NCBI GenBank assembly: GCA_947561715.1 | Contig: OX387201.1 | Span: forward strand, 5,412,001-5,476,000 | Direction of reading: 5' to 3' | Origin: Ascidia mentula | Taxonomy: Eukaryota; Chordata; Ascidiacea; Phlebobranchia; Ascidiidae | DNA: 64,000 bases | Part shown: one piece after another, positions 22,943 to 64,000 of the stretch | Layout of the letters: every line of letters begins with the position of its first letter | Numbering within the stretch: the stretch's first letter is position 1 | Notes under the pieces: generated by a model | Databases searched by the model: none | Told to the model about the DNA's origin: nothing | What the model saw: only the letters and a program-made list of their open reading frames with translations | Position numbers and translations under genes: made by a program

Positions 22943-23247
22943 TTACAGTATGGGTTCAGCACCGCATGCCGAGGAGTGACACGCGCACTCTAGCGCCACC
23001 TCATACACGTACACCTTACTCGATCCGTCTGGACAGAAGAGGTCAGCTGTGCGTTTTTCTGTCTTCACCGTGCTACAGCAGGAACATTGCTTCTCGAAGG
23101 TTCCTGCCTCGGACGAGAACACTGATGCGCTGGTACACGCTCCTTCGCACATGGTCACGTTGACCTTATCAGAAGAGCGGCATCCGTCGTGTTCAAGTTC
23201 CTCAACGTAGTCGGTAACTGGTCGACACTTGCTCTCCGGAACGTTTC
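22943..23247 (-). other. C-terminal cystine-knot (CTCK) domain
   Basis: The last exon encodes about 100 residues with the complete CTCK cysteine spacing: CRPV, GCRSS, CEGAC, CSCCST, FCPDG and CACHSSAC, followed by GAEPIL and the stop. The C-x-G-A-C and C-x-CC elements are hallmarks. In VWF and mucins this domain forms disulfide-linked dimers in the endoplasmic reticulum. One N-glycosylation sequon (NVT) is present. Confidence 0.88.
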
Positions 23248-29200: not shown

Positions 29201-32200
29201 TAGCGAGCTGTCGCACACTAAACGAAAAATTCACCCATAAGCATTTAAACAGCACTTCGAGTTTTATCCAAAATTCCAGTACAAAACCGCGTGCCCTAAG
29301 AGTCAATAATGGCACATTTGCATTTATAATTGATTCCCTGCAAAACGTTGGTAGTAGGTATGGATAAACCCGCCTGAGAACTTACCGCATTCGTATTCTT
29401 CACAGCATCCGCTCTTCTTGGAAACTAGTACGTAACCCGCATCACAAACCGGTTGTGCCACCGCTGGACAAACTGCTGGATCACACACAACACCATCCGC
29501 ACTGCATACGCATTCCTTGCAGCTGTCAATGGGATCTGTCCAACTATCACCAATCTAAACACAGCACAAATGATACAGTGAACATAGGTGTTTGAACACA
29601 CCATCAGAAAACCAACAACCGGTCTAGTTAAGTTTAGTTGGTAGTTAAATGTGAGTGCGTTTGCTTTTATGTTACATCACATTCTTTGTGCTGTTTCTGT
29701 GCAATTAACTGTTTTTCAAAAACAGCAACTGAAGTGCTTACGTTATGAGGCACGCCGGCAGCATCTTTACAGCTCGTGTCGTCGAAAACACACACAGGGC
29801 AACAGTCATAGGGGTTGACAAGTTCGAGTTTTTGTCCCGCCGGGCAAGAGCTAATCTCACAGGTCTCTGGGACACATTGTGCCTTGCCGCCCATACAAAT
29901 ACAGTTCGTGCATCCACCATCCTCTTTCCAAACGGCTCCGGTCTGCAATCACAACAAATCCTAATTTAAATTACGCAGTCGCTGGCAGGCATAACAGACA
30001 AATACCAAAGGCGGTACTGGTCGAAACTTAATACACGTTTATGTGACAAACACGACTAAAATTCAGAACTCATTGAAGTTGATGAATTACGTTTTTTGAA
30101 CATTTGTACTCGGCTGATACCAATAAAGAACTTACCGCTCTTCGGACCGAATCTCTGTAGCAGGGACAGTCGCTAGTGTAGACGCACGTCGTACCATCGC
30201 AAACTTGTTCTGCTGGACACACTCCGCATGTAGAAGCATCCACAACGCCTGGGCATGATCCATCCATGTAACCGGACTCGGCCGAAGCCAGAGCCTTAGC
30301 GTAAGATTCGGAGAGGGCACTATAACGGCCAGCTGCGTAAGCGTCGTAGTCGGATGCAAGAGCGAGCCCGGACTTTGCAGCAGCGTCGGCCCCGATTTCA
30401 ACGCCACCGGCCGTGAACGACACCAACAACTCTGAGTTCTTTGAGTCAGAGGTATCGCTGACAACAGATGACCCGCCATTGTTTGCTGAGGCGCCGGCCG
30501 CCGAGGCAGCATTGTTGTTGGAAGATTGCGCAACGGCAGAAGTTTTGCCACTGCCATCTGATGACGACGTGGAGAAGAACAAATTGGGCGGCAGTAGAGA
30601 GCTACTTGCGCCAGAAACTCCAGTACCATATGCCATATTGATGCATTTTGAGACCAAGCAACATGCCTGTTTATCAACAGGGGTCTTGACGGAATCCGCA
30701 GGGCACTTGATATCATCAGAGGTCATACATTTGGAGGGATTGCAAGCACATTCGTATGATCCGCAACAATCGCCATCGTCTTCAGGGAGGAATAATATAT
30801 CCTCGAAGTAATCGCAAACAGGAGCAGTAGTATCACATGACGAAATATCGCAGTTCTCGTCAACAACACGATAACTTAAACAACAGTCGTCTGTCTTTTC
30901 ACTAACAACCTTCTTTCCAATTTCCGCGATTGGATATGCATCACATACCCGGTCAGAACAACTAAAACAAACAAAAAGATGAAGGATAAAACGTAGGAAA
31001 TAAATTAAAATACAAACGAATAACGAAAACAAAACACTAACCTGACTGAAGAACCGCTTGAGCAGCTGCAAACAATGCAAGAATCGCCATATTTGTACCA
31101 CGTCTCACCATAACAGCGACTGACACCAAATTCATCAATACAATCCGGGGAATCTAAATGACCATAACCAACGTCGCTGCCTTGAGCGTTCGCTGCCAGT
31201 GCCTTTCCGAGAGCCGCGTTGTCGGCCTTGTTCGCAAGTTGCACGTCGCTGCCCGAGCTGTCATCGTCGCCAGTCACCATTTCGAAGGTTGAACCTCCAA
31301 GCACGATGCCGGACTTGGCCGCTCCGTAAGCGTCGCCGCCATATTGGCCGCCGTACTCTCCTGGATAGTATCCGTGGCCCGCTGTACCGAGACCTGCCGC
31401 GCCAGCACCGATCAGAGTGTCGCCGGCGGTGAAGATCGCCTTGCTGCCCTTGCCGCCCTTCTTGCCGCCGTCCACAAAGACGCCGCTGTCCTGAGCACCG
31501 TACGCCGCACCGAGGCCAGCTGCCAGGTTTTCGCCGAACTGGTCAGCCTTGACAGTGCCGTCGTGGCCTTCATCTCCGTAATCCTCGATCATGAACGAGT
31601 GTCCGCCAACAATGATGTCGGAAGCGGCGGCACCCATCGCCTTGCCGTGTCCGCGGAATTTGCCTGGACCTCCGTAGGGGCCATAGCCGTGACCAGCGCC
31701 AGCGAGAGCACCCGCTCCAATCACCGTGTCGCCCATGGCGTGCACGAACTTGCTAAAGTCCGCGCCGCTGTCCTTGCCTCCGACGAACACGTCGCTGCCT
31801 TGAGCGTTCGCTGCCAGTGCCTTTCCGAGAGCCGCGTTGTCGGCCTTGTTCGCAAGTTGCACGTCGCTGCCCGAGCTGTCATCGTCGCCAGTCACCATTT
31901 CGAAGGTTGAACCTCCAAGCACGATGCCGGACTTGGCCGCTCCGTAAGCGTCGCCGCCATATTGGCCGCCGTACTCTCCTGGATAGTATCCGTGGCCCGC
32001 TGTACCGAGACCTGCCGCGCCAGCACCGATCAGAGTGTCGCCGGCGGTGAAGATCGCCTTGCTGCCCTTTCCGCCCTTCTTGCCGCCGTCCACAAAGACG
32101 CCGCTGTCCTGAGCACCGTACGCCGCACCGAGGCCAGCTGCCAGGTTTTCGCCGAACTGGTCAGCCTTGACAGTGCCGTCGTGGCCTTCATCTCCGTAAT

Positions 32201-35200
32201 CCTCGATCATGAACGAGTGTCCGCCAACAATGATGTCGGAAGCGGCGGCACCCATCGCCTTGCCGTGTCCGCGGAATTTGCCTGGACCTCCGTAGGGGCC
32301 ATAGCCGTGACCAGCGCCAGCGAGAGCACCCGCTCCAATCACCGTGTCGCCCATGGCGTGCACGAACTTGCTAAAGTCCGCGCCGCTGTCCTTGCCTCCG
32401 ACGAACACGTCGCTGCCTTGAGCGTTCGCTGCCAGTGCCTTTCCGAGAGCCGCGTTGTCGGCCTTGTTCGCAAGTTGCACGTCGCTGCCCGAGCTGTCAT
32501 CGTCGCCAGTCACCATTTCGAAGGTTGAACCTCCAAGCACGATGCCGGACTTGGCCGCTCCGTAAGCGTCGCCGCCATATTGGCCGCCGTACTCTCCTGG
32601 ATAGTATCCGTGGCCCGCTGTACCGAGACCTGCCGCGCCAGCACCGATCAGAGTGTCGCCGGCGGTGAAGATCGCCTTGCTGCCCTTTCCGCCCTTCTTG
32701 CCGCCGTCCACAAAGACGCCGCTGTCCTGAGCACCGTACGCCGCACCGAGGCCAGCTGCCAGGTTTTCGCCGAACTGGTCAGCCTTGACAGTGCCGTCGT
32801 GGCCTTCATCTCCGTAATCCTCGATCATGAACGAGTGTCCGCCAACAATGATGTCGGAAGCGGCGGCACCCATCGCCTTGCCGTGTCCGCGGAATTTGCC
32901 TGGACCTCCGTAGGGGCCATAGCCGTGACCAGCGCCAGCGAGAGCACCCGCTCCAATCACCGTGTCGCCCATGGCGTGCACGAACTTGCTAAAGTCCGCG
33001 CCGCTGTCCTTGCCTCCGACGAACACGTCGCTGCCTTGAGCGTTCGCTGCCAGTGCCTTTCCGAGAGCCGCGTTGTCGGCCTTGTTCGCAAGTTGCACGT
33101 CGCTGCCCGAGCTGTCATCGTCGCCAGTCACCATTTCGAAGGTTGAACCTCCAAGCACGATGCCGGACTTGGCCGCTCCGTAAGCGTCGCCGCCATATTG
33201 GCCGCCGTACTCTCCTGGATAGTATCCGTGGCCCGCTGTACCGAGACCTGCCGCGCCAGCACCGATCAGAGTGTCGCCGGCGGTGAAGATCGCCTTGCTG
33301 CCCTTTCCGCCCTTCTTGCCGCCGTCCACAAAGACGCCGCTGTCCTGAGCACCGTACGCCGCACCGAGGCCAGCTGCCAGGTTTTCGCCGAACTGGTCAG
33401 CCTTGACAGTGCCGTCGTGGCCTTCATCTCCGTAATCCTCGATCATGAACGAGTGTCCGCCAACAATGATGTCGGAAGCGGCGGCACCCATCGCCTTGCC
33501 GTGTCCGCGGAATTTGCCTGGACCTCCGTAGGGGCCATAGCCGTGACCAGCGCCAGCGAGAGCACCCGCTCCAATCACCGTGTCGCCCATGGCGTGCACG
33601 AACTTGCTAAAGTCCGCGCCGCTGTCCTTGCCTCCGACGAACACGTCGCTGCCTTGAGCGTTCGCTGCCAGTGCCTTTCCGAGAGCCGCGTTGTCGGCCT
33701 TGTTCGCAAGTTGCACGTCGCTGCCCGAGCTGTCATCGTCGCCAGTCACCATTTCGAAGGTTGAACCTCCAAGCACGATGCCGGACTTGGCCGCTCCGTA
33801 AGCGTCGCCGCCATATTGGCCGCCGTACTCTCCTGGATAGTATGCGTGGCCCGCTGTACCGAGACCTGCCGCGCCAGCACCGATCAGAGTGTCGCCGGCG
33901 GTGAAGATCGCCTTGCTGCCCTTTCCGCCCTTCTTGCCGCCGTCCACAAAGACGCCGCTGTCCTGAGCACCGTACGCCGCACCGAGGCCAGCTGCCAGGT
34001 TTTCGCCGAACTGGTCAGCCTTGACAGTGCCGTCGTGGCCTTCATCTCCGTAATCCTCGATCATGAACGAGTGTCCGCCAACAATGATGTCGGAAGCGGC
34101 GGCACCCATCGCCTTGCCGTGTCCGCGGAATTTGCCTGGACCTCCGTAGGGGCCATAGCCGTGACCAGCGCCAGCGAGAGCACCCGCTCCAATCACCGTG
34201 TCGCCCATGGCGTGCACGAACTTGCTAAAGTCCGCGCCGCTGTCCTTGCCTCCGACGAACACGTCGCTGCCTTGAGCGTTCGCTGCCAGTGCCTTTCCGA
34301 GAGCCGCGTTGTCGGCCTTGTTCGCAAGTTGCACGTCGCTGCCCGAGCTGTCATCGTCGCCAGTCACCATTTCGAAGGTTGAACCTCCAAGCACGATGCC
34401 GGACTTGGCCGCTCCGTAAGCGTCGCCGCCATATTGGCCGCCGTACTCTCCTGGATAGTATGCGTGGCCCGCTGTACCGAGACCTGCCGCGCCAGCACCG
34501 ATCAGAGTGTCGCCGGCGGTGAAGATCGCCTTGCTGCCCTTTCCGCCCTTCTTGCCGCCGTCCACAAAGACGCCGCTGTCCTGAGCACCGTACGCCGCAC
34601 CGAGGCCAGCTGCCAGGTTTTCGCCGAACTGGTCAGCCTTGACAGTGCCGTCGTGGCCTTCATCTCCGTAATCCTCGATCATGAACGAGTGTCCGCCAAC
34701 AATGATGTCGGAAGCGGCGGCACCCATCGCCTTGCCGTGTCCGCGGAATTTGCCTGGACCTCCGTAGGGGCCATAGCCGTGACCAGCGCCAGCGAGAGCA
34801 CCCGCTCCAATCACCGTGTCGCCCATGGCGTGCACGAACTTGCTAAAGTCCGCGCCGCTGTCCTTGCCTCCGACGAACACGTCGCTGCCTTGAGCGTTCG
34901 CTGCCAGTGCCTTTCCGAGAGCCGCGTTGTCGGCCTTGTTCGCAAGTTGCACGTCGCTGCCCGAGCTGTCATCGTCGCCAGTCACCATTTCGAAGGTTGA
35001 ACCTCCAAGCACGATGCCGGACTTGGCCGCTCCGTAAGCGTCGCCGCCATATTGGCCGCCGTACTCTCCTGGATAGTATGCGTGGCCCGCTGTACCGAGA
35101 CCTGCCGCGCCAGCACCGATCAGAGTGTCGCCGGCGGTGAAGATCGCCTTGCTGCCCTTTCCGCCCTTCTTGCCGCCGTCCACAAAGACGCCGCTGTCCT

Positions 35201-38200
35201 GAGCACCGTACGCCGCACCGAGGCCAGCTGCCAGGTTTTCGCCGAACTGGTCAGCCTTGACAGTGCCGTCGTGGCCTTCATCTCCGTAATCCTCGATCAT
35301 GAACGAGTGTCCGCCAACAATGATGTCGGAAGCGGCGGCACCCATCGCCTTGCCGTGTCCGCGGAATTTGCCTGGACCTCCGTAGGGGCCATAGCCGTGA
35401 CCAGCGCCAGCGAGAGCACCCGCTCCAATCACCGTGTCGCCCATGGCGTGCACGAACTTGCTAAAGTCCGCGCCGCTGTCCTTGCCTCCGACGAACACGT
35501 CGCTGCCTTGAGCGTTCGCTGCCAGTGCCTTTCCGAGAGCCGCGTTGTCGGCCTTGTTCGCAAGTTGCACGTCGCTGCCCGAGCTGTCATCGTCGCCAGT
35601 CACCATTTCGAAGGTTGAACCTCCAAGCACGATGCCGGACTTGGCCGCTCCGTAAGCGTCGCCGCCATATTGGCCGCCGTACTCTCCTGGATAGTATGCG
35701 TGGCCCGCTGTACCGAGACCTGCCGCGCCAGCACCGATCAGAGTGTCGCCGGCGGTGAAGATCGCCTTGCTGCCCTTGCCGCCCTTCTTGCCGCCGTCCA
35801 CAAAGACGCCGCTGTCCTGAGCACCGTACGCCGCACCGAGGCCAGCTGCCAGGTTTTCGCCGAACTGGTCAGCCTTGACAGTGCCGTCGTGGCCTTCATC
35901 TCCGTAATCCTCGATCATGAACGAGTGTCCGCCAACAATGATGTCGGAAGCGGCGGCACCCATCGCCTTGCCGTGTCCGCGGAATTTGCCTGGACCTCCG
36001 TAGGGGCCATAGCCGTGACCAGCGCCAGCGAGAGCACCCGCTCCAATCACCGTGTCGCCCATGGCGTGCACGAACTTGCTAAAGTCCGCGCCGCTGTCCT
36101 TGCCTCCGACGAACACGTCGCTGCCTTGAGCGTTCGCTGCCAGTGCCTTTCCGAGAGCCGCGTTGTCGGCCTTGTTCGCAAGTTGCACGTCGCTGCCCGA
36201 GCTGTCATCGTCGCCAGTCACCATTTCGAAGGTTGAACCTCCAAGCACGATGCCGGACTTGGCCGCTCCGTAAGCGTCGCCGCCATATTGGCCGCCGTAC
36301 TCTCCTGGATAGTATGCGTGGCCCGCTGTACCGAGACCTGCCGCGCCAGCACCGATCAGAGTGTCGCCGGCGGTGAAGATCGCCTTGCTGCCCTTGCCGC
36401 CCTTCTTGCCGCCGTCCACAAAGACGCCGCTGTCCTGAGCACCGTACGCCGCACCGAGGCCAGCTGCCAGGTTTTCGCCGAACTGGTCAGCCTTGACAGT
36501 GCCGTCGTGGCCTTCATCTCCGTAATCCTCGATCATGAACGAGTGTCCGCCAACAATGATGTCGGAAGCGGCGGCACCCATCGCCTTGCCGTGTCCGCGG
36601 AATTTGCCTGGACCTCCGTAGGGGCCATAGCCGTGACCAGCGCCAGCGAGAGCACCCGCTCCAATCACCGTGTCGCCCATGGCGTGCACGAACTTGCTAA
36701 AGTCCGCGCCGCTGTCCTTGCCTCCGACGAACACGTCGCTGCCTTGAGCGTTCGCTGCCAGTGCCTTTCCGAGAGCCGCGTTGTCGGCCTTGTTCGCAAG
36801 TTGCACGTCGCTGCCCGAGCTGTCATCGTCGCCAGTCACCATTTCGAAGGTTGAACCTCCAAGCACGATGCCGGACTTGGCCGCTCCGTAAGCGTCGCCG
36901 CCATATTGGCCGCCGTACTCTCCTGGATAGTATGCGTGGCCCGCTGTACCGAGACCTGCCGCGCCAGCACCGATCAGAGTGTCGCCGGCGGTGAAGATCG
37001 CCTTGCTGCCCTTTCCGCCCTTCTTGCCGCCGTCCACAAAGACGCCGCTGTCCTGAGCACCGTACGCCGCACCGAGGCCAGCTGCCAGGTTTTCGCCGAA
37101 CTGGTCAGCCTTGACAGTGCCGTCGTGGCCTTCATCTCCGTAATCCTCGATCATGAACGAGTGTCCGCCAACAATGATGTCGGAAGCGGCGGCACCCATC
37201 GCCTTGCCGTGTCCGCGGAATTTGCCTGGACCTCCGTAGGGGCCATAGCCGTGACCAGCGCCAGCGAGAGCACCCGCTCCAATCACCGTGTCGCCCATGG
37301 CGTGCACGAACTTGCTAAAGTCCGCGCCGCTGTCCTTGCCTCCGACGAACACGTCGCTGCCTTGAGCGTTCGCTGCCAGTGCCTTTCCGAGAGCCGCGTT
37401 GTCGGCCTTGTTCGCAAGTTGTACGTCGCTGCCCGAGCTGTCATCGTCGCCAGTCACCATTTCGAAGGTTGAACCTCCAAGCACGATGCCGGACTTGGCC
37501 GCTCCGTAAGCGTCGCCGCCATATTGGCCGCCGTACTCTCCTGGATAGTATGCGTGGCCCGCTGTACCGAGACCTGCCGCGCCAGCACCGATCAGAGTGT
37601 CGCCGGCGGTGAAGATCGCCTTGCTGCCCTTGCCGCCCTTCTTGCCGCCGTCCACAAAGACGCCGCTGTCCTGAGCACCGTACGCCGCACCGAGGCCAGC
37701 TGCCAGGTTTTCGCCGAACTGGTCAGCCTTGACAGTGCCGTCGTGGCCTTCATCTCCGTAATCCTCGATCATGAACGAGTGTCCGCCAACAATGATGTCG
37801 GAAGCGGCGGCACCCATCGCCTTGCCGTGTCCGCGGAATTTGCCTGGACCTCCGTAGGGGCCATAGCCGTGACCAGCGCCAGCGAGAGCACCCGCTCCAA
37901 TCACCGTGTCGCCCATGGCGTGCACGAACTTGCTAAAGTCCGCGCCGCTGTCCTTGCCTCCGACGAACACGTCGCTGCCTTGAGCGTTCGCTGCCAGTGC
38001 CTTTCCGAGAGCCGCGTTGTCGGCCTTGTTCGCAAGTTGCACGTCGCTGCCCGAGCTGTCATCGTCGCCAGTCACCATTTCGAAGGTTGAACCTCCAAGC
38101 ACGATGCCGGACTTGGCCGCTCCGTAAGCGTCGCCGCCATATTGGCCGCCGTACTCTCCTGGATAGTATGCGTGGCCCGCTGTACCGAGACCTGCCGCGC

Positions 38201-41200
38201 CAGCACCGATCAGAGTGTCGCCGGCGGTGAAGATCGCCTTGCTGCCCTTTCCGCCCTTCTTGCCGCCGTCCACAAAGACGCCGCTGTCCTGAGCACCGTA
38301 CGCCGCACCGAGGCCAGCTGCCAGGTTTTCGCCGAACTGGTCAGCCTTGACAGTGCCGTCGTGGCCTTCATCTCCGTAATCCTCGATCATGAACGAGTGT
38401 CCGCCAACAATGATGTCGGAAGCGGCGGCACCCATCGCCTTGCCGTGTCCGCGGAATTTGCCTGGACCTCCGTAGGGGCCATAGCCGTGACCAGCGCCAG
38501 CGAGAGCACCCGCTCCAATCACCGTGTCGCCCATGGCGTGCACGAACTTGCTAAAGTCCGCGCCGCTGTCCTTGCCTCCGACGAACACGTCGCTGCCTTG
38601 AGCGTTCGCTGCCAGTGCCTTTCCGAGAGCCGCGTTGTCGGCCTTGTTCGCAAGTTGCACGTCGCTGCCCGAGCTGTCATCGTCGCCAGTCACCATTTCG
38701 AAGGTTGAACCTCCAAGCACGATGCCGGACTTGGCCGCTCCGTAAGCGTCGCCGCCATATTGGCCGCCGTACTCTCCTGGATAGTATGCGTGGCCCGCTG
38801 TACCGAGACCTGCCGCGCCAGCACCGATCAGAGTGTCGCCGGCGGTGAAGATCGCCTTGCTGCCCTTGCCGCCCTTCTTGCCGCCGTCCACAAAGACGCC
38901 GCTGTCCTGAGCACCGTACGCCGCACCGAGGCCAGCTGCCAGGTTTTCGCCGAACTGGTCAGCCTTGACAGTGCCGTCGTGGCCTTCATCTCCGTAATCC
39001 TCGATCATGAACGAGTGTCCGCCAACAATGATGTCGGAAGCGGCGGCACCCATCGCCTTGCCGTGTCCGCGGAATTTGCCTGGACCTCCGTAGGGGCCAT
39101 AGCCGTGACCAGCGCCAGCGAGAGCACCCGCTCCAATCACCGTGTCGCCCATGGCGTGCACGAACTTGCTAAAGTCCGCGCCGCTGTCCTTGCCTCCGAC
39201 GAACACGTCGCTGCCTTGAGCGTTCGCTGCCAGTGCCTTTCCGAGAGCCGCGTTGTCGGCCTTGTTCGCAAGTTGCACGTCGCTGCCCGAGCTGTCATCG
39301 TCGCCAGTCACCATTTCGAAGGTTGAACCTCCAAGCACGATGCCGGACTTGGCCGCTCCGTAAGCGTCGCCGCCATATTGGCCGCCGTACTCTCCTGGAT
39401 AGTATGCGTGGCCCGCTGTACCGAGACCTGCCGCGCCAGCACCGATCAGAGTGTCGCCGGCGGTGAAGATCGCCTTGCTGCCCTTGCCGCCCTTCTTGCC
39501 GCCGTCCACAAAGACGCCGCTGTCCTGAGCACCGTACGCCGCACCGAGGCCAGCTGCCAGGTTTTCGCCGAACTGGTCAGCCTTGACAGTGCCGTCGTGG
39601 CCTTCATCTCCGTAATCCTCGATCATGAACGAGTGTCCGCCAACAATGATGTCGGAAGCGGCGGCACCCATCGCCTTGCCGTGTCCGCGGAATTTGCCTG
39701 GACCTCCGTAGGGGCCATAGCCGTGACCAGCGCCAGCGAGAGCACCCGCTCCAATCACCGTGTCGCCCATGGCGTGCACGAACTTGCTAAAGTCCGCGCC
39801 GCTGTCCTTGCCTCCGACGAACACGTCGCTGCCTTGAGCGTTCGCTGCCAGTGCCTTTCCGAGAGCCGCGTTGTCGGCCTTGTTCGCAAGTTGCACGTCG
39901 CTGCCCGAGCTGTCATCGTCGCCAGTCACCATTTCGAAGGTTGAACCTCCAAGCACGATGCCGGACTTGGCCGCTCCGTAAGCGTCGCCGCCATATTGGC
40001 CGCCGTACTCTCCTGGATAGTATGCGTGGCCCGCTGTACCGAGACCTGCCGCGCCAGCACCGATCAGAGTGTCGCCGGCGGTGAAGATCGCCTTGCTGCC
40101 CTTTCCGCCCTTCTTGCCGCCGTCCACAAAGACGCCGCTGTCCTGAGCACCGTACGCCGCACCGAGGCCAGCTGCCAGGTTTTCGCCGAACTGGTCAGCC
40201 TTGACAGTGCCGTCGTGGCCTTCATCTCCGTAATCCTCGATCATGAACGAGTGTCCGCCAACAATGATGTCGGAAGCGGCGGCACCCATCGCCTTGCCGT
40301 GTCCGCGGAATTTGCCTGGACCTCCGTAGGGGCCATAGCCGTGACCAGCGCCAGCGAGAGCACCCGCTCCAATCACCGTGTCGCCCATGGCGTGCACGAA
40401 CTTGCTAAAGTCCGCGCCGCTGTCCTTGCCTCCGACGAACACGTCGCTGCCTTGAGCGTTCGCTGCCAGTGCCTTTCCGAGAGCCGCGTTGTCGGCCTTG
40501 TTCGCAAGTTGCACGTCGCTGCCCGAGCTGTCATCGTCGCCAGTCACCATTTCGAAGGTTGAACCTCCAAGCACGATGCCGGACTTGGCCGCTCCGTAAG
40601 CGTCGTCGCCATATTGGCCGCCGTACTCTCCTGGATAGTATGCGTGGCCCGCTGTACCGAGACCTGCCGCGCCAGCACCGATCAGAGTGTCGCCGGCGGT
40701 GAAGATCGCCTTGCTGCCCTTGCCGCCCTTCTTGCCGCCGTCCACAAAGACGCCGCTGTCCTGAGCACCGTACGCCGCACCGAGGCCAGCTGCCAGGTTT
40801 TCGCCGAACTGGTCAGCCTTGACAGTGCCGTCGTGGCCTTCATCTCCGTAATCCTCGATCATGAACGAGTGTCCGCCAACAATGATGTCGGAAGCGGCGG
40901 CACCCATCGCCTTGCCGTGTCCGCGGAATTTGCCTGGACCTCCGTAGGGGCCATAGCCGTGACCAGCGCCAGCGAGAGCACCCGCTCCAATCACCGTGTC
41001 GCCCATGGCGTGCACGAACTTGCTAAAGTTCGCGCCGCTGTCCTTGCCTCCGACGAACACGTCGCTGCCTTGAGCGTTCGCTGCCAGTGCCTTTCCGAGA
41101 GCCGCGTTGTCGGCCTTGTTCGCAAGTTGCACGTCGCTGCCCGAGCTGTCATCGTCGCCAGTCACCATTTCGAAGGTTGAACCTCCAAGCACGATGCCGG

Positions 41201-53200: not shown

Positions 53201-56200
53201 CATCTCCGTAATCCTCGATCATGAACGAGTGTCCGCCAACAATGATGTCGGAAGCGGCGGCACCCATCGCCTTGCCGTGTCCGCGGAATTTGCCTGGACC
53301 TCCGTAGGGGCCATAGCCGTGACCAGCGCCAGCGAGAGCACCCGCTCCAATCACCGTGTCGCCCATGGCGTGCACGAACTTGCTAAAGTCCGCGCCGCTG
53401 TCCTTGCCTCCGACGAACACGTCGCTGCCTTGAGCGTTCGCTGCCAGTGCCTTTCCGAGAGCCGCGTTGTCGGCCTTGTTCGCAAGTTGCACGTCGCTGC
53501 CCGAGCTGTCATCGTCGCCAGTCACCATTTCGAAGGTTGAACCTCCAAGCACGATGCCGGACTTGGCCGCTCCGTAAGCGTCGCCGCCATATTGGCCGCC
53601 GTACTCTCCTGGATAGTATGCGTGGCCCGCTGTACCGAGACCTGCCGCGCCAGCACCGATCAGAGTGTCGCCGGCGGTGAAGATCGCCTTGCTGCCCTTG
53701 CCGCCCTTCTTGCCGCCGTCCACAAAGACGCCGCTGTCCTGAGCACCGTACGCCGCACCGAGGCCAGCTGCCAGGTTTTCGCCGAACTGGTCAGCCTTGA
53801 CAGTGCCGTCGTGGCCTTCATCTCCGTAATCCTCGATCATGAACGAGTGTCCGCCAACAATGATGTCGGAAGCGGCGGCACCCATCGCCTTGCCGTGTCC
53901 GCGGAATTTGCCTGGACCTCCGTAGGGGCCATAGCCGTGACCAGCGCCAGCGAGAGCACCCGCTCCAATCACCGTGTCGCCCATGGCGTGCACGAACTTG
54001 CTAAAGTCCGCGCCGCTGTCCTTGCCTCCGACGAACACGTCGCTGCCTTGAGCGTTCGCTGCCAGTGCCTTTCCGAGAGCCGCGTTGTCGGCCTTGTTCG
54101 CAAGTTGCACGTCGCTGCCCGAGCTGTCATCGTCGCCAGTCACCATTTCGAAGGTTGAACCTCCAAGCACGATGCCGGACTTGGCCGCTCCGTAAGCGTC
54201 GCCGCCATATTGGCCGCCGTACTCTCCTGGATAGTATGCGTGGCCCGCTGTACCGAGACCTGCCGCGCCAGCACCGATCAGAGTGTCGCCGGCGGTGAAG
54301 ATCGCCTTGCTGCCCTTTCCGCCCTTCTTGCCGCCGTCCACAAAGACGCCGCTGTCCTGAGCACCGTACGCCGCACCGAGGCCAGCTGCCAGGTTTTCGC
54401 CGAACTGGTCAGCCTTGACAGTGCCGTCGTGGCCTTCATCTCCGTAATCCTCGATCATGAACGAGTGTCCGCCAACAATGATGTCGGAAGCGGCGGCACC
54501 CATCGCCTTGCCGTGTCCGCGGAATTTGCCTGGACCTCCGTAGGGGCCATAGCCGTGACCAGCGCCAGCGAGAGCACCCGCTCCAATCACCGTGTCGCCC
54601 ATGGCGTGCACGAACTTGCTAAAGTCCGCGCCGCTGTCCTTGCCTCCGACGAACACGTCGCTGCCTTGAGCGTTCGCTGCCAGTGCCTTTCCGAGAGCCG
54701 CGTTGTCGGCCTTGTTCGCAAGTTGCACGTCGCTGCCCGAGCTGTCATCGTCGCCAGTCACCATTTCGAAGGTTGAACCTCCAAGCACGATGCCGGACTT
54801 GGCCGCTCCGTAAGCGTCGCCGCCATATTGGCCGCCGTACTCTCCTGGATAGTATGCGTGGCCCGCTGTACCGAGACCTGCCGCGCCAGCACCGATCAGA
54901 GTGTCGCCGGCGGTGAAGATCGCCTTGCTGCCCTTTCCGCCCTTCTTGCCGCCGTCCACAAAGACGCCGCTGTCCTGAGCACCGTACGCCGCACCGAGGC
55001 CAGCTGCCAGGTTTTCGCCGAACTGGTCAGCCTTGACAGTGCCGTCGTGGCCTTCATCTCCGTAATCCTCGATCATGAACGAGTGTCCGCCAACAATGAT
55101 GTCGGAAGCGGCGGCACCCATCGCCTTGCCGTGTCCGCGGAATTTGCCTGGACCTCCGTAGGGGCCATAGCCGTGACCAGCGCCAGCGAGAGCACCCGCT
55201 CCAATCACCGTGTCGCCCATGGCGTGCACGAACTTGCTAAAGTCCGCGCCGCTGTCCTTGCCTCCGACGAACACGTCGCTGCCTTGAGCGTTCGCTGCCA
55301 GTGCCTTTCCGAGAGCCGCGTTGTCGGCCTTGTTCGCAAGTTGCACGTCGCTGCCCGAGCTGTCATCGTCGCCAGTCACCATTTCGAAGGTTGAACCTCC
55401 AAGCACGATGCCGGACTTGGCCGCTCCGTAAGCGTCGCCGCCATATTGGCCGCCGTACTCTCCTGGATAGTATGCGTGGCCCGCTGTACCGAGACCTGCC
55501 GCGCCAGCACCGATCAGAGTGTCGCCGGCGGTGAAGATCGCCTTGCTGCCCTTGCCGCCCTTCTTGCCGCCGTCCACAAAGACGCCGCTGTCCTGAGCAC
55601 CGTACGCCGCACCGAGGCCAGCTGCCAGGTTTTCGCCGAACTGGTCAGCCTTGACAGTGCCGTCGTGGCCTTCATCTCCGTAATCCTCGATCATGAACGA
55701 GTGTCCGCCAACAATGATGTCGGAAGCGGCGGCACCCATCGCCTTGCCGTGTCCGCGGAATTTGCCTGGACCTCCGTAGGGGCCATAGCCGTGACCAGCG
55801 CCAGCGAGAGCACCCGCTCCAATCACCGTGTCGCCCATGGCGTGCACGAACTTGCTAAAGTCCGCGCCGCTGTCCTTGCCTCCGACGAACACGTCGCTGC
55901 CTTGAGCGTTCGCTGCCAGTGCCTTTCCGAGAGCCGCGTTGTCGGCCTTGTTCGCAAGTTGCACGTCGCTGCCCGAGCTGTCATCGTCGCCAGTCACCAT
56001 TTCGAAAGTTGAACCTCCAAGCACGATGCCGGACTTGGCCGCTCCGTAAGCGTCGCCGCCATATTGGCCGCCGTACTCTCCTGGATAGTATGCGTGGCCC
56101 GCTGTACCGAGACCTGCCGCGCCAGCACCGATCAGAGTGTCGCCGGCGGTGAAGATCGCCTTGCTGCCCTTTCCGCCCTTCTTGCCGCCGTCCACAAAGA

Positions 56201-59200
56201 CGCCGCTGTCCTGAGCACCGTACGCCGCACCGAGGCCAGCTGCCAGGTTTTCGCCGAACTGGTCAGCCTTGACAGTGCCGTCGTGGCCTTCATCTCCGTA
56301 ATCCTCGATCATGAACGAGTGTCCGCCAACAATGATGTCGGAAGCGGCGGCACCCATCGCCTTGCCGTGTCCGCGGAATTTGCCTGGACCTCCGTAGGGG
56401 CCATAGCCGTGACCAGCGCCAGCGAGAGCACCCGCTCCAATCACCGTGTCGCCCATGGCGTGCACGAACTTGCTAAAGTCCGCGCCGCTGTCCTTGCCTC
56501 CGACGAACACGTCGCTGCCTTGAGCGTTCGCTGCCAGTGCCTTTCCGAGAGCCGCGTTGTCGGCCTTGTTCGCAAGTTGCACGTCGCTGCCCGAGCTGTC
56601 ATCGTCGCCAGTCACCATTTCGAAGGTTGAACCTCCAAGCACGATGCCGGACTTGGCCGCTCCGTAAGCGTCGCCGCCATATTGGCCGCCGTACTCTCCT
56701 GGATAGTATGCGTGGCCCGCTGTACCGAGACCTGCCGCGCCAGCACCGATCAGAGTGTCGCCGGCGGTGAAGATCGCCTTGCTGCCCTTGCCGCCCTTCT
56801 TGCCGCCGTCCACAAAGACGCCGCTGTCCTGAGCACCGTACGCCGCACCGAGGCCAGCTGCCAGGTTTTCGCCGAACTGGTCAGCCTTGACAGTGCCGTC
56901 GTGGCCTTCATCTCCGTAATCCTCGATCATGAACGAGTGTCCGCCAACAATGATGTCGGAAGCGGCGGCACCCATCGCCTTGCCGTGTCCGCGGAATTTG
57001 CCTGGACCTCCGTAGGGGCCATAGCCGTGACCAGCGCCAGCGAGAGCACCCGCTCCAATCACCGTGTCGCCCATGGCGTGCACGAACTTGCTAAAGTCCG
57101 CGCCGCTGTCCTTGCCTCCGACGAACACGTCGCTGCCTTGAGCGTTCGCTGCCAGTGCCTTTCCGAGAGCCGCGTTGTCGGCCTTGTTCGCAAGTTGCAC
57201 GTCGCTGCCCGAGCTGTCATCGTCGCCAGTCACCATTTCGAAGGTTGAACCTCCAAGCACGATGCCGGACTTGGCCGCTCCGTAAGCGTCGCCGCCATAT
57301 TGGCCGCCGTACTCTCCTGGATAGTATGCGTGGCCCGCTGTACCGAGACCTGCCGCGCCAGCACCGATCAGAGTGTCGCCGGCGGTGAAGATCGCCTTGC
57401 TGCCCTTGCCGCCCTTCTTGCCGCCGTCCACAAAGACGCCGCTGTCCTGAGCACCGTACGCCGCACCGAGGCCAGCTGCCAGGTTTTCGCCGAACTGGTC
57501 AGCCTTGACAGTGCCGTCGTGGCCTTCATCTCCGTAATCCTCGATCATGAACGAGTGTCCGCCAACAATGATGTCGGAAGCGGCGGCACCCATCGCCTTG
57601 CCGTGTCCGCGGAATTTGCCTGGACCTCCGTAGGGGCCATAGCCGTGACCAGCGCCAGCGAGAGCACCCGCTCCAATCACCGTGTCGCCCATGGCGTGCA
57701 CGAACTTGCTAAAGTCCGCGCCGCTGTCCTTGCCTCCGACGAACACGTCGCTGCCTTGAGCGTTCGCTGCCAGTGCCTTTCCGAGAGCCGCGTTGTCGGC
57801 CTTGTTCGCAAGTTGCACGTCGCTGCCCGAGCTGTCATCGTCGCCAGTCACCATTTCGAAGGTTGAACCTCCAAGCACGATGCCGGACTTGGCCGCTCCG
57901 TAAGCGTCGCCGCCATATTGGCCGCCGTACTCTCCTGGATAGTATGCGTGGCCCGCTGTACCGAGACCTGCCGCGCCAGCACCGATCAGAGTGTCGCCGG
58001 CGGTGAAGATCGCCTTGCTGCCCTTGCCGCCCTTCTTGCCGCCGTCCACAAAGACGCCGCTGTCCTGAGCACCGTACGCCGCACCGAGGCCAGCTGCCAG
58101 GTTTTCGCCGAACTGGTCAGCCTTGACAGTGCCGTCGTGGCCTTCATCTCCGTAATCCTCGATCATGAACGAGTGTCCGCCAACAATGATGTCGGAAGCG
58201 GCGGCACCCATCGCCTTGCCGTGTCCGCGGAATTTGCCTGGACCTCCGTAGGGGCCATAGCCGTGACCAGCGCCAGCGAGAGCACCCGCTCCAATCACCG
58301 TGTCGCCCATGGCGTGCACGAACTTGCTAAAGTCCGCGCCGCTGTCCTTGCCTCCGACGAACACGTCGCTGCCTTGAGCGTTCGCTGCCAGTGCCTTTCC
58401 GAGAGCCGCGTTGTCGGCCTTGTTCGCAAGTTGCACGTCGCTGCCCGAGCTGTCATCGTCGCCAGTCACCATTTCGAAGGTTGAACCTCCAAGCACGATG
58501 CCGGACTTGGCCGCTCCGTAAGCGTCGCCGCCATATTGGCCGCCGTACTCTCCTGGATAGTATGCGTGGCCCGCTGTACCGAGACCTGCCGCGCCAGCAC
58601 CGATCAGAGTGTCGCCGGCGGTGAAGATCGCCTTGCTGCCCTTTCCGCCCTTCTTGCCGCCGTCCACAAAGACGCCGCTGTCCTGAGCACCGTACGCCGC
58701 ACCGAGGCCAGCTGCCAGGTTTTCGCCGAACTGGTCAGCCTTGACAGTGCCGTCGTGGCCTTCATCTCCGTAATCCTCGATCATGAACGAGTGTCCGCCA
58801 ACAATGATGTCGGAAGCGGCGGCACCCATCGCCTTGCCGTGTCCGCGGAATTTGCCTGGACCTCCGTAGGGGCCATAGCCGTGACCAGCGCCAGCGAGAG
58901 CACCCGCTCCAATCACCGTGTCGCCCATGGCGTGCACGAACTTGCTAAAGTCCGCGCCGCTGTCCTTGCCTCCGACGAACACGTCGCTGCCTTGAGCGTT
59001 CGCTGCCAGTGCCTTTCCGAGAGCCGCGTTGTCGGCCTTGTTCGCAAGTTGCACGTCGCTGCCCGAGCTGTCATCGTCGCCAGTCACCATTTCGAAGGTT
59101 GAACCTCCAAGCACGATGCCGGACTTGGCCGCTCCGTAAGCGTCGCCGCCATATTGGCCGCCGTACTCTCCTGGATAGTATGCGTGGCCCGCTGTACCGA

Positions 59201-62200
59201 GACCTGCCGCGCCAGCACCGATCAGAGTGTCGCCGGCGGTGAAGATCGCCTTGCTGCCCTTGCCGCCCTTCTTGCCGCCGTCCACAAAGACGCCGCTGTC
59301 CTGAGCACCGTACGCCGCACCGAGGCCAGCTGCCAGGTTTTCGCCGAACTGGTCAGCCTTGACAGTGCCGTCGTGGCCTTCATCTCCGTAATCCTCGATC
59401 ATGAACGAGTGTCCGCCAACAATGATGTCGGAAGCGGCGGCACCCATCGCCTTGCCGTGTCCGCGGAATTTGCCTGGACCTCCGTAGGGGCCATAGCCGT
59501 GACCAGCGCCAGCGAGAGCACCCGCTCCAATCACCGTGTCGCCCATGGCGTGCACGAACTTGCTAAAGTCCGCGCCGCTGTCCTTGCCTCCGACGAACAC
59601 GTCGCTGCCTTGAGCGTTCGCTGCCAGTGCCTTTCCGAGAGCCGCGTTGTCGGCCTTGTTCGCAAGTTGCACGTCGCTGCCCGAGCTGTCATCGTCGCCA
59701 GTCACCATTTCGAAGGTTGAACCTCCAAGCACGATGCCGGACTTGGCCGCTCCGTAAGCGTCGCCGCCATATTGGCCGCCGTACTCTCCTGGATAGTATG
59801 CGTGGCCCGCTGTACCGAGACCTGCCGCGCCAGCACCGATCAGAGTGTCGCCGGCGGTGAAGATCGCCTTGCTGCCCTTGCCGCCCTTCTTGCCGCCGTC
59901 CACAAAGACGCCGCTGTCCTGAGCACCGTACGCCGCACCGAGGCCAGCTGCCAGGTTTTCGCCGAACTGGTCAGCCTTGACAGTGCCGTCGTGGCCTTCA
60001 TCTCCGTAATCCTCGATCATGAACGAGTGTCCGCCAACAATGATGTCGGAAGCGGCGGCACCCATCGCCTTGCCGTGTCCGCGGAATTTGCCTGGACCTC
60101 CGTAGGGGCCATAGCCGTGACCAGCGCCAGCGAGAGCACCCGCTCCAATCACCGTGTCGCCCATGGCGTGCACGAACTTGCTAAAGTCCGCGCCGCTGTC
60201 CTTGCCTCCGACGAACACGTCGCTGCCTTGAGCGTTCGCTGCCAGTGCCTTTCCGAGAGCCGCGTTGTCGGCCTTGTTCGCAAGTTGCACGTCGCTGCCC
60301 GAGCTGTCATCGTCGCCAGTCACCATTTCGAAAGTTGAACCTCCAAGCACGATGCCGGACTTGGCCGCTCCGTAAGCGTCGCCGCCATATTGGCCGCCGT
60401 ACTCTCCTGGATAGTATGCGTGGCCCGCTGTACCGAGACCTGCCGCGCCAGCACCGATCAGAGTGTCGCCGGCGGTGAAGATCGCCTTGCTGCCCTTTCC
60501 GCCCTTCTTGCCGCCGTCCACAAAGACGCCGCTGTCCTGAGCACCGTACGCCGCACCGAGGCCAGCTGCCAGGTTTTCGCCGAACTGGTCAGCCTTGACA
60601 GTGCCGTCGTGGCCTTCATCTCCGTAATCCTCGATCATGAACGAGTGTCCGCCAACAATGATGTCGGAAGCGGCGGCACCCATCGCCTTGCCGTGTCCGC
60701 GGAATTTGCCTGGACCTCCGTAGGGGCCATAGCCGTGACCAGCGCCAGCGAGAGCACCCGCTCCAATCACCGTGTCGCCCATGGCGTGCACGAACTTGCT
60801 AAAGTCCGCGCCGCTGTCCTTGCCTCCGACGAACACGTCGCTGCCTTGAGCGTTCGCTGCCAGTGCCTTTCCGAGAGCCGCGTTGTCGGCCTTGTTCGCA
60901 AGTTGCACGTCGCTGCCCGAGCTGTCATCGTCGCCAGTCACCATTTCGAAGGTTGAACCTCCAAGCACGATGCCGGACTTGGCCGCTCCGTAAGCGTCGC
61001 CGCCATATTGGCCGCCGTACTCTCCTGGATAGTATGCGTGGCCCGCTGTACCGAGACCTGCCGCGCCAGCACCGATCAGAGTGTCGCCGGCGGTGAAGAT
61101 CGCCTTGCTGCCCTTGCCGCCCTTCTTGCCGCCGTCCACAAAGACGCCGCTGTCCTGAGCACCGTACGCCGCACCGAGGCCAGCTGCCAGGTTTTCGCCG
61201 AACTGGTCAGCCTTGACAGTGCCGTCGTGGCCTTCATCTCCGTAATCCTCGATCATGAACGAGTGTCCGCCAACAATGATGTCGGAAGCGGCGGCACCCA
61301 TCGCCTTGCCGTGTCCGCGGAATTTGCCTGGACCTCCGTAGGGGCCATAGCCGTGACCAGCGCCAGCGAGAGCACCCGCTCCAATCACCGTGTCGCCCAT
61401 GGCGTGCACGAACTTGCTAAAGTCCGCGCCGCTGTCCTTGCCTCCGACGAACACGTCGCTGCCTTGAGCGTTCGCTGCCAGTGCCTTTCCGAGAGCCGCG
61501 TTGTCGGCCTTGTTCGCAAGTTGCACGTCGCTGCCCGAGCTGTCATCGTCGCCAGTCACCATTTCGAAGGTTGAACCTCCAAGCACGATGCCGGACTTGG
61601 CCGCTCCGTAAGCGTCGCCGCCATATTGGCCGCCGTACTCTCCTGGATAGTATGCGTGGCCCGCTGTACCGAGACCTGCCGCGCCAGCACCGATCAGAGT
61701 GTCGCCGGCGGTGAAGATCGCCTTGCTGCCCTTGCCGCCCTTCTTGCCGCCGTCCACAAAGACGCCGCTGTCCTGAGCACCGTACGCCGCACCGAGGCCA
61801 ACTGCCAGGTTTTCGCCGAACTGGTCAGCCTTGACAGTGCCGTCGTGGCCTTCATCTCCGTAATCCTCGATCATGAACGAGTGTCCGCCAACAATGATGT
61901 CGGAAGCGGCGGCACCCATCGCCTTGCCGTGTCCGCGGAATTTGCCTGGACCTCCGTAGGGGCCATAGCCGTGACCAGCGCCAGCGAGAGCACCCGCTCC
62001 AATCACCGTGTCGCCCATGGCGTGCACGAACTTGCTAAAGTCCGCGCCGCTGTCCTTGCCTCCGACGAACACGTCGCTGCCTTGAGCGTTCGCTGCCAGT
62101 GCCTTTCCGAGAGCCGCGTTGTCGGCCTTGTTCGCAAGTTGCACGTCGCTGCCCGAGCTGTCATCGTCGCCAGTCACCATTTCGAAGGTTGAACCTCCAA

Positions 62201-64000
62201 GCACGATGCCGGACTTGGCCGCTCCGTAAGCGTCGCCGCCATATTGGCCGCCGTACTCTCCTGGATAGTATGCGTGGCCCGCTGTACCGAGACCTGCCGC
62301 GCCAGCACCGATCAGAGTGTCGCCGGCGGTGAAGATCGCCTTGCTGCCCTTGCCGCCCTTCTTGCCGCCGTCCACAAAGACGCCGCTGTCCTGAGCACCG
62401 TACGCCGCACCGAGGCCAGCTGCCAGGTTTTCGCCGAACTGGTCAGCCTTGACAGTGCCGTCGTGGCCTTCATCTCCGTAATCCTCGATCATGAACGAGT
62501 GTCCGCCAACAATGATGTCGGAAGCGGCGGCACCCATCGCCTTGCCGTGTCCGCGGAATTTGCCTGGACCTCCGTAGGGGCCATAGCCGTGACCAGCGCC
62601 AGCGAGAGCACCCGCTCCAATCACCGTGTCGCCCATGGCGTGCACGAACTTGCTAAAGTCCGCGCCGCTGTCCTTGCCTCCGACGAACACGTCGCTGCCT
62701 TGAGCGTTCGCTGCCAGTGCCTTTCCGAGAGCCGCGTTGTCGGCCTTGTTCGCAAGTTGCACGTCGCTGCCCGAGCTGTCATCGTCGCCAGTCACCATTT
62801 CGAAAGTTGAACCTCCAAGCACGATGCCGGACTTGGCCGCTCCGTAAGCGTCGCCGCCATATTGGCCGCCGTACTCTCCTGGATAGTATGCGTGGCCCGC
62901 TGTACCGAGACCTGCCGCGCCAGCACCGATCAGAGTGTCGCCGGCGGTGAAGATCGCCTTGCTGCCCTTTCCGCCCTTCTTGCCGCCGTCCACAAAGACG
63001 CCGCTGTCCTGAGCACCGTACGCCGCACCGAGGCCAGCTGCCAGGTTTTCGCCGAACTGGTCAGCCTTGACAGTGCCGTCGTGGCCTTCATCTCCGTAAT
63101 CCTCGATCATGAACGAGTGTCCGCCAACAATGATGTCGGAAGCGGCGGCACCCATCGCCTTGCCGTGTCCGCGGAATTTGCCTGGACCTCCGTAGGGGCC
63201 ATAGCCGTGACCAGCGCCAGCGAGAGCACCCGCTCCAATCACCGTGTCGCCCATGGCGTGCACGAACTTGCTAAAGTCCGCGCCGCTGTCCTTGCCTCCG
63301 ACGAACACGTCGCTGCCTTGAGCGTTCGCTGCCAGTGCCTTTCCGAGAGCCGCGTTGTCGGCCTTGTTCGCAAGTTGCACGTCGCTGCCCGAGCTGTCAT
63401 CGTCGCCAGTCACCATTTCGAAGGTTGAACCTCCAAGCACGATGCCGGACTTGGCCGCTCCGTAAGCGTCGCCGCCATATTGGCCGCCGTACTCTCCTGG
63501 ATAGTATGCGTGGCCCGCTGTACCGAGACCTGCCGCGCCAGCACCGATCAGAGTGTCGCCGGCGGTGAAGATCGCCTTGCTGCCCTTGCCGCCCTTCTTG
63601 CCGCCGTCCACAAAGACGCCGCTGTCCTGAGCACCGTACGCCGCACCGAGGCCAGCTGCCAGGTTTTCGCCGAACTGGTCAGCCTTGACAGTGCCGTCGT
63701 GGCCTTCATCTCCGTAATCCTCGATCATGAACGAGTGTCCGCCAACAATGATGTCGGAAGCGGCGGCACCCATCGCCTTGCCGTGTCCGCGGAATTTGCC
63801 TGGACCTCCGTAGGGGCCATAGCCGTGACCAGCGCCAGCGAGAGCACCCGCTCCAATCACCGTGTCGCCCATGGCGTGCACGAACTTGCTAAAGTCCGCG
63901 CCGCTGTCCTTGCCTCCGACGAACACGTCGCTGCCTTGAGCGTTCGCTGCCAGTGCCTTTCCGAGAGCCGCGTTGTCGGCCTTGTTCGCAAGTTGCACGT
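22943..64000 (-). CDS. Giant secreted mucin/VWF-like protein with a >53-copy 206-residue repeat (5' end outside the window)
   Basis: Seventeen visible exons on the complement: 31042->64000, 30136-30961, 29742-29942, 29386-29554, 29116-29217, 28833-28937, 28290-28508, 27614-27837, 26611-27396, 26294-26488, 25950-26171, 25263-25705, 24798-24988, 24291-24518, 23709-23930, 23323-23478, 22943-23247. Every join is GT-AG and phase-consistent, giving over 12,500 residues with the start missing. Order: tandem repeats; VWC-like modules split by a Ser/Ala/Gly linker; a D4-like VWD with GLCG and DGDIRND motifs; C8; TIL; further cysteine-rich VWC-type modules with recurring CCPxYxC signatures; C-terminal cystine knot. 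In VWF and gel-forming mucins this tail drives disulfide dimerisation in the secretory pathway, so an extracellular polymer is inferred. The repeat has no cysteine or tryptophan and is rich in Gly, Ala, Asp, Tyr and His, like silk or adhesive proteins rather than an O-glycosylated mucin domain. The upstream part, possibly D1-D2-D3 and a signal peptide, lies outside. Tissue and precise role are unknown. Confidence 0.9.
23323..26171 (-). other. C-terminal VWC-type cysteine-rich modules
   Basis: Exons from 25950-26171 to 23323-23478 encode further modules with the recurring signature CCPxYxC or CCxxYxCxC, including four in exon 25263-25705. The last, with GQCCGDCV and CCTVCLT, resembles the region just before the cystine knot in VWF and mucins. 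Confidence 0.75.
26294..27837 (-). other. D4-like VWD-C8-TIL assembly
   Basis: Exon 27614-27837 starts a VWD domain (IHTFDGYSYARSCPC). Exon 26611-27396 completes it (FSGKTEGLCGLADGD) with the calcium-site-like DGDIRND. A Gly/Ser-rich insertion follows, then the C8 domain with the CESFFKN and CVEWRTDNFC regions and the start of the TIL domain (GCFCSDGKVLLDGKC, across the splice). Exon 26294-26488 closes the TIL and enters a VWC-type module. The GDPH self-cleavage motif of some mucin D4 domains is not seen. Confidence 0.85.
27975..28160. mobile_element. Short insertion flanked by 14-bp direct repeats, with a terminal hairpin
   Basis: CATGTATACATTAT occurs at 27975-27988 and 28147-28160, bracketing 158 bp and resembling a target-site duplication. 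The first 69 bp or so form a perfect 20-bp inverted repeat (27987-28006 with 28036-28055) and a 29-nt loop. No coding capacity, A-tail or tRNA-like boxes are evident, so I cannot assign it to a SINE or MITE family. It lies in the intron between exons 28290-28508 and 27614-27837 of the giant gene. Confidence 0.5.
27987..28055. repeat. Perfect 20-bp inverted repeat (hairpin)
   Basis: ATGAGGTTTTCAGGCTTGGC at 27987-28006 is exactly complementary to 28036-28055, with a 29-nt spacer. It could fold as RNA from either strand. It sits at one end of the insertion described separately. Confidence 0.85.
28290..29942 (-). other. Run of VWC-type modules encoded by small exons
   Basis: Exons 29742-29942, 29386-29554, 29116-29217, 28833-28937 and 28290-28508 each carry one or part of one module with the pattern C-x-C ... 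CCP/CCG/CCE ... Y-x-C. The last four boundaries are phase 1, the symmetrical arrangement that permits exon shuffling and duplication. VWC modules are small disulfide-bonded extracellular domains involved in oligomerisation and ligand binding. Confidence 0.75.
30136..31170 (-). other. Post-repeat segment: VWC-like modules and Ser/Ala/Gly linker
   Basis: Exon 1 ends in a cysteine-rich start (CIDEFGVSRCYGETWYKYGD) that continues over the 31042/30961 splice into VWC-like modules with repeated CC pairs. A low-complexity linker follows, rich in Ser, Ala, Asn and Gly, at about 30280-30640. It contains short phrases (LLVSFTAGG, SYAKALASAE) that faintly recall the tandem repeat. A TIL-like cysteine cluster (SCPGVVDASTCGVC) closes the exon. 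Confidence 0.6.
31171..31788 (-). repeat. Single 206-residue repeat unit made of two ~103-residue halves
   Basis: The last copy serves as type unit. Half A runs from QGSDVFVGGKDSGADFSK to AAGLGAAYGA and half B from QDSGVFVDGGKKGGKGSK to ALGKALAANA. They share in register VFVxGGK, AGDT(V/L)IGAGA-like (MGDTVIGAGA in half A), GHxY, GAAxSxI(I/V)(V/L)GG(H/S)(S/T)F, an acidic DYGDEGHD/GDDDSSGSD stretch, an AD/A pattern and an Ala-rich end. Short V/I-rich strands alternate with Gly turns, which suggests a beta-rich, possibly solenoid-like fold; that is inference. Confidence 0.8.
31171..64000 (-). repeat. 618-bp coding tandem array, at least 53 copies, within one exon
   Basis: The period is exactly 618 bp (206 codons) from 31171 to the window end, with no indel and no stop. 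Copies differ at only a few positions, many silent. The unit is GC-rich with G/C-ending codons, unlike the AT-rich flanks. It encodes nine Tyr, six His, three Pro, one Arg and no Cys or Trp. The homology ends abruptly at 31171, where the unique sequence reading GYGHLDSPDC begins. The array is open at the right edge, so the true copy number is higher. Confidence 0.98.

Follow-up and report, generated by a model that had tools for sequence, protein, structure and literature searches.

The window, by which we mean the whole 64,000-nucleotide stretch of Ascidia mentula DNA that was analyzed, was placed at C69:5412001-5476000 by a DNA search of its own genome (195.8 Mb, 79 contigs). On the minus strand, positions 31008 to 63998 form an uninterrupted frame of 10,997 codons. 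Positions 31001 to 64000 are 99.4% identical at a lag of 618, compared with 23.4% at lags of 617 and 619. Thus, the original prediction of an open minus-strand frame with an exact 618-bp period held. The same DNA search found that copies of the 618-bp unit continue beyond the window. We joined the window to the 100 kb that follow it on the contig, with no N in the sequence, and call positions in this sequence extended coordinates. Here the minus-strand frame runs to extended position 124571 as a single open frame of 31,188 codons. The anchor SDIIVGGHSF occurs in it 143 times, and every spacing is exactly 206 residues.

A giant exon on C69

The modeled giant exon lies at extended 31042-124526 (C69:5443042-5536526) and measures 93,485 bp between its AG acceptor and its GT donor. 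Its limits come from a home-made splice model that uses splice sites and reading frames and no cDNA. The exon has 31,161 whole codons with no stops and would encode 3.02 MDa. Within the window it occupies 31042..64000 on the minus strand, of which 31171..64000 belongs to the array of 206-residue (618-bp) units as judged from periodicity, anchors, variation, and composition. The splice model places a GT after 31042, in agreement with the exon end predicted there. A single exon of more than 32.9 kb had been claimed; that it is a single exon was confirmed, but its size was understated. Similarly, the claimed repeats (at least 53) are real but too few, as the window edge had stopped the count, and the exon holds 143.7 units. 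The model adds about 1,510 residues before the giant exon and about 1,530 after it. We found that the modeled protein is indeed giant, and the earlier figure of over 12,500 residues is corrected to about 34,200, as far as the protein is modeled toward its N terminus. Among the papers listed by literature searches for giant exons and proteins, we saw no tunicate case. Tandem Repeats Finder handles periods up to 500 and therefore did not report the array, and scans of the window with Rfam (gathering scores) and for tRNAs gave no matches.

As assembled, the array has 29,608 residues, or 143.7 units, a copy number that depends on the assembly. It contains no cysteine, its G+A content is 41%, and with P+T+S at 10.7% it does not form the PTS-rich center of strict mucins. 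An N-glycosylation sequon was absent from the one unit checked. The two halves of the unit are alike (43 identities in 107 columns), which indicates that an older doubling gave rise to the unit. We found no Pfam match for 309 array residues at E 1. One PDB match to the unit (E 0.073) was judged to be chance, leaving no credible PDB relative.

The giant exon opens with 1,520 residues that are not part of the array and whose frame is open throughout. Here four similar Cys pairs alternate with repeat-like stretches that have diverged, among them one full copy of the unit, 205 residues long. Cys pairs 2 to 4 are 43 to 52% identical to the first and are VWC-like by eye, and Pfam gave no match at E 0.01 in residues 1 to 1,729 of the exon, Cys pairs included. 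Compared with the unit, the diverged copy has a dN of 0.24 and a dS of 0.90. The ratio of about 0.27 indicates that the repeat evolved as protein.

Several other features were noted in and around the window. On the plus strand, window positions 18121-18390 and 19087-19329 resemble exons of the RNA polymerase III subunit Rpc31 (PF11705, below cut-off), and 4732-9582 is an open frame of 1,617 codons that is rich in Arg/Ser at its start and drew no match from Pfam at E 1. The upstream neighbor gene, at extended 141858-143103 on the minus strand, encodes SAM domains; we take it to be liprin-alpha-like. Elsewhere in the genome, COX1 on the mitochondrial contig (C79) reads AGA/AGG as glycine, with 18 such codons listed, many of them at invariant glycines. 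This is code table 13, the code of tunicates, and it marks the genome as a tunicate's. In line with it are two weak matches to GH6 glycosidases (32 and 27.8 bits; Pfam cut-off, 27), since GH6 is not known in animals other than tunicates. The mitochondrial contig is 19,461 bp long; ascidian mitochondrial genomes are generally shorter than this.

Exons on both sides of the array encode a VWF/gel-forming-mucin scaffold

All exons on the C-terminal side lie on the minus strand. The giant exon closes with a nonrepeat stretch at 31042..31170, in which a VWC-like Cys module starts by eye (DSPDCIDEFGVSRCYGETW...). The exon at 30136..30961 holds the rest of this module and a serine-rich linker (splice model, alignment). 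Its Cys module is 46% identical to one near the giant exon's other end (query residues 34-139). Another VWC-like module, recognized by eye, occupies 29742..29942. VWC-like Cys-module exons follow within 28290..29535, at 29386-29535, 29116-29217, 28833-28937, and 28290-28508 (splice model; Pfam or by eye). A 22-bp model exon at 29602-29623 is doubtful. Three stretches of the spliced C-terminal protein pass as VWC in Pfam, the best being residues 1333-1395. At 26611..27837, Pfam identifies a D4 assembly (exons 27614-27837 and 26611-27396), with VWD at E=3.4e-12 and C8 at C69:5438749-5438973 (window 26749-26973) at E=4.9e-7. Next, within 23323..26488, come Cys-rich exons at 26294-26488, 25950-26171, 25263-25705, 24798-24988, 24291-24518, 23709-23930, and 23323-23478, the last ones VWC (splice model, Pfam, alignment). 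The last coding exon, at 22943..23247, encodes a C-terminal cystine knot ending ...CHSSACGAEPIL-stop, as judged by alignment and open frame. Pfam gave no match to the knot at E 0.01; it was identified by alignment to VWF (4nt5, E=4.6e-12) and MUC2 (7qcu, E=4.7e-17). The splice-model tail after the knot was wrong, since it left the last exon early, and was overruled by the open frame. Thus, D4, VWC, and a cystine knot are all present C terminal of the array. An intronic inverted repeat at window positions ~27988-28054, with arms of TGAGGTTTTCAGGCTTGGC and its complement, resembles a small mobile element.

On the N-terminal side, we found Pfam VWD, C8, and TIL in three stretches each. In PDB alignments, residues 208-1381 of the model align to MUC2 (E=5.8e-155), MUC5AC, and VWF, and the third VWD-C8-TIL unit aligns best with D3 of these proteins. 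D1-D2-D'-D3 is therefore present N terminal of the array. Upstream of D1 there may be one or more sushi-like modules: one stretch gave a weak Pfam match (E 1.1e-4), the second of the two stretches tried was unmatched, and so was the N side searched whole at E 0.01. Model exons beyond extended 135976 were judged not credible. Among the Pfam matches of the modeled parts, which leave the extreme N terminus outside, there is neither a VWA nor a chitin-binding domain. The encoded domains support the extracellular nature claimed for the protein. It had been described as unrecognized, which stands for the unit, with no Pfam match and no credible PDB match, but not for the gene, which has the VWF/gel-forming-mucin scaffold.

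A second giant gene on C67

Used as a query, the first Cys pair of the C69 giant exon matched, besides C69, position C67:12658298, inside an open frame of 32,200 codons. This second giant frame spans C67:12658280-12754879 (96.6 kb) in a gene that we place at C67:12646630-12761254 from its open frame and from reading its ends. Three C8 matches lie upstream of the frame. By eye, reading as far as the D4-like exons that come after the frame, we found sushi-like, VWD, and VWC-like exons. Queried with its C67 copy, the junction motif CIRYYCWNN gave matches at the two giant loci only. On C67 this motif and the first Cys module occupy exons of their own ahead of the giant frame, an arrangement that differs from that on C69.

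The second giant carries 48-residue repeats of the type YGPKPSAPLVEVFEEGQGFKPMTPVYGGDFGTQPIKQLGPEYVDTGIG. All 150 scored matches of this repeat, taken from 402 first-look candidates, fall in the C67 frame, and all 148 matches of the 206-residue unit fall on C69. Each repeat thus matches only its own locus, and the giant arrays must have arisen or diverged in two paralogous genes. Neither 320 residues of the C67 array against Pfam at E 1 nor the 48-residue repeat against the PDB up to E 1 gave a match. We sampled 147 units from eight short best-match loci, some overlapping, and dropped spacings other than 48. These units depart from their consensus at about 9 of 144 bases, and an explanation of the C67 gene by assembly fault alone is accordingly less likely. 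The ratio of nonsynonymous to synonymous rates in the C67 array is about 1.0, and no constraint is therefore visible beyond the absence of stops. No stops were found, compared with 21.6 expected from 406 differences; these differences share descent, and over 67 variant types only 3.6 stops are expected.

The genome contains 79 C8 matches, many grouped by about three, on contigs that include C2, C52, C67, C72, and C73, which suggests a large D-assembly gene family. A VWC/TIL-like gene with a Thr/Ser/Pro-rich stretch at C67:4841767-4844904 is perhaps, by eye, a classic gel-forming mucin. At C73:10578364-10581576 there are two near-identical Cys-rich open frames, one of 234 codons and one of 255, separated by about 920 bases.

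Linking cysteines and a possible disulfide-linked thread

In MUC5AC, the C8-3 cysteine that links D3 dimers is Cys1132, and a D3 intermolecular cysteine in TIL3 is Cys1174 (passages of PMC11933400). We found the C8-3 cysteine in both giants: GDCECLC of the C69 giant aligns to GDCACFC of VWF, and GECECFC of the paralogue aligns to GDCECFC of MUC2. We take the VWF equivalents of Cys1132 and Cys1174 to be cysteines 1099 and 1142. The equivalent of Cys1174/Cys1142 is absent from both giants in the D3 alignments because they lack the short ...ECEW... insertion in which VWF and MUC2 have this cysteine. In the knot of the C69 giant, QCSCC and the last cysteine align to VWF 4nt5 at the sites of tail-to-tail dimerization, presumably VWF cysteines 2771, 2773, and 2811. 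With these positions assumed as the set of five linking cysteines, four of the five align and one D3 cysteine is absent. The CGLC motif belongs to D1 and D2 of the VWF/gel-forming-mucin scaffold. By eye, its first cysteine is absent in D1, D2, and D3 (QGLCG, AGMCG, and EGLCG). Since this cysteine and the D3 cysteine are both missing, the N-terminal linkage may differ from that of VWF.

These features suggest how the protein could be assembled. The C-terminal cystine knots would pair chains tail to tail, and D3 would link them head to head, giving linear disulfide-linked multimers. Between the ends, the Cys-free units, with 29,608 residues of 0.34 nm each, would span up to about 10 μm at full extension. 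Since the units have few glycosylation sites, the product would be a long protein thread and not a sugar-coated gel chain or bottle-brush. In a less certain step, the thread would be secreted by the endostyle as a structural fiber of the mucous feeding net. Overall, we lean toward a secreted, VWF/gel-forming-mucin-like thread protein of about 34,200 residues that is disulfide linked and serves as an endostyle feeding-net fiber, a reading drawn from sequence to which we give somewhat better than even chances.

The tissue placement would follow from VWF-like genes of other ascidians. Passages of PMC2527998 describe a VWF-like gene of Botryllus with an EST match to Ciona VWF-like 1. Its expression lies in zones 2 and 4 of the endostyle and, mildly, in zones 6 and 8, a pattern said to coincide with that of the Ciona VWF orthologues. 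In passages of other papers, Botrylloides endostyle clusters are marked by Muc5a and VWF transcripts (PMC12212465), mucin 5AC is detected in an ascidian endostyle transcriptome (PMC9953650), and the mucous net is secreted by the endostyle (PMC5465252). Neither von Willebrand nor mucin occurs in the main text of a Ciona tissue-specific gene study (PMC8462739), and in the passages found of PMC9953650 and PMC8462739 no VWF protein is named as an endostyle gene. Among the papers listed, mostly as titles and abstract starts, we saw none that names the structural protein of the net. We consider the feeding net the likeliest place of the giant protein, which would make the gene a gene-level candidate for tunicate feeding-net material.

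The same scaffold could instead serve in the food envelope of the gut, as Ci-GFM1 of Ciona does, and not in the pharyngeal net. According to passages of PMC6109156, Ci-GFM1 has the same domain order and is third in abundance in the envelope proteome. However, it has 2,880 residues, a 50-residue PTS, and a chitin-binding domain, and no chitin-binding domain is among the Pfam matches in the modeled parts of the C69 protein. We regard a gut role as unlikely. We judge it improbable that the scaffold works as an adhesive, tunic, egg-coat, or blood-clot protein. In favor of such roles, parts of the published work report BvWF transcripts also in macrophage-like cells of Botryllus (PMC2527998), VWD proteins in the Oikopleura house (PMC3390340), and a frog glue made of IgGFc-binding domains and disordered repeats (PMC11237159). 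The repeats of the frog glue are predicted to be O-glycosylated in passages of the same paper (PMC11237159), whereas the C69 unit is poor in Ser/Thr/Pro.

Probable recent amplification of the array

To describe variation within the array, we compared 142 full units, leaving out the first (diverged at its start) and the last (truncated). They comprise 22 nucleotide versions and 14 protein versions, with 20 of 618 sites variable and a unit-to-unit diversity (pi) of 0.0018 per site. Set against the dS of 0.90 for the diverged copy, this agrees with the earlier claim of a giant, repeat-rich, and recently homogenized protein. The recent variant types (13 nonsynonymous, 7 synonymous) show no evident selection. 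Unit position 171 is C in 72 of the 142 units and A in 70. The mean difference between units is 1.00 at distance 1 and 1.05 at distance 80; far units are about as similar as neighbors, with no decay. A runs test on the commonest variant (z=-1.5) likewise gave no clear distance pattern. The longest duplicated block, of 9 units, was reached in 2 of 100 shuffles and is a weak hint of block duplication. Units 42-49 (counted from 0, 5' end first) carry the four-version block 8,9,8,10 twice in succession, a trace of block duplication. We read these data as recent amplification and exchange among copies, which they do not separate. Tandem amplification with exchange between copies would set the array length and keep the units alike.

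Could the array length be an assembly error, the real unit count being much lower (or higher)? Such an error is compatible with the other readings, and units this close to identical would invite it. The longest exact duplicate within the array, however, is 6,014 bp, within ordinary long-read reach, so reads longer than that could order the array. The variant sites, chiefly the 72:70 one, give an order code, and the 32,200-codon frame on C67, with its more divergent units, is harder to misassemble. We consider an error of this kind quite improbable. Finally, a noncoding satellite or decayed gene that is open by chance is most implausible: a stop-free 618-bp unit stays open trivially when repeated, and the recent variants are without clear selection, but the flanking modeled exons are in frame with GT/AG sites and conserved domains, the 1,520 nonrepeat residues at the exon start are also open, the diverged copy has a dN/dS of 0.27 relative to the unit, and the C67 gene, whose repeat is of another kind, is likewise open.

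Taken together, the sequence evidence suggests that the C69 gene very likely encodes a real, titin-sized member of the VWF/gel-forming-mucin family with a silk-like center and is not a strict mucin. The scaffold of clotting and mucus gels would here have been turned into a titin-sized protein thread. The two open frames of more than 90 kb are also material for tests of splicing, translation, and uniformity. The tunicate mucous feeding net is rectangular. It is conceivable, though very doubtful, that the two giants, whose repeats are unrelated and whose frames (93.6 and 96.6 kb) are almost the same length, are its two fiber systems. If so, the mesh would owe its regularity to chains of equal length, fixed by the size of the arrays, and the net, far from being a mucin gel, would be a fabric woven of silk-like protein on a VWF scaffold.

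Comparison with known systems

Silk fibroins and spidroins have Gly/Ala-rich, near-identical repeats between nonrepeat ends, as does the C69 giant. Titin is like the C69 giant in size. The silks and titin differ from the C69 giant in that its ends belong to the VWF family, the sequence relation being compared through Pfam and PDB only. MUC2 and MUC5AC have the same D1-D2-D'-D3 and D4-VWC-cystine knot ends. In contrast to theirs, the center of the C69 giant is not PTS-rich, its array is without cysteine, and one D3 intermolecular cysteine is missing. VWF has the scaffold and the cystine knot in common with the C69 giant, which differs in having no VWA among its Pfam matches and in being about twelve times longer than VWF, given as 2,813 residues in passages of PMC6109156.

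The amphibian glue PRIT, as described in parts of PMC11237159, is a secreted member of a VWD-supradomain gene family in which repeats arose between domains. It differs in its 18-residue disordered repeats, predicted O-glycosylation, lost VWD, and far smaller size. In passages of PMC2527998, Ciona VWF-like 1 and 2 and Botryllus BvWF are VWF-like and endostyle expressed. Ci-GFM1 is a tunicate member with the same order of domains, D1-D2-D'D3-D4-VWC-knot; it differs in its 2,880 residues, its 50-residue PTS, and its chitin-binding domain, and it keeps all five intermolecular cysteines, compared with four in the C69 giant (passages of PMC6109156).
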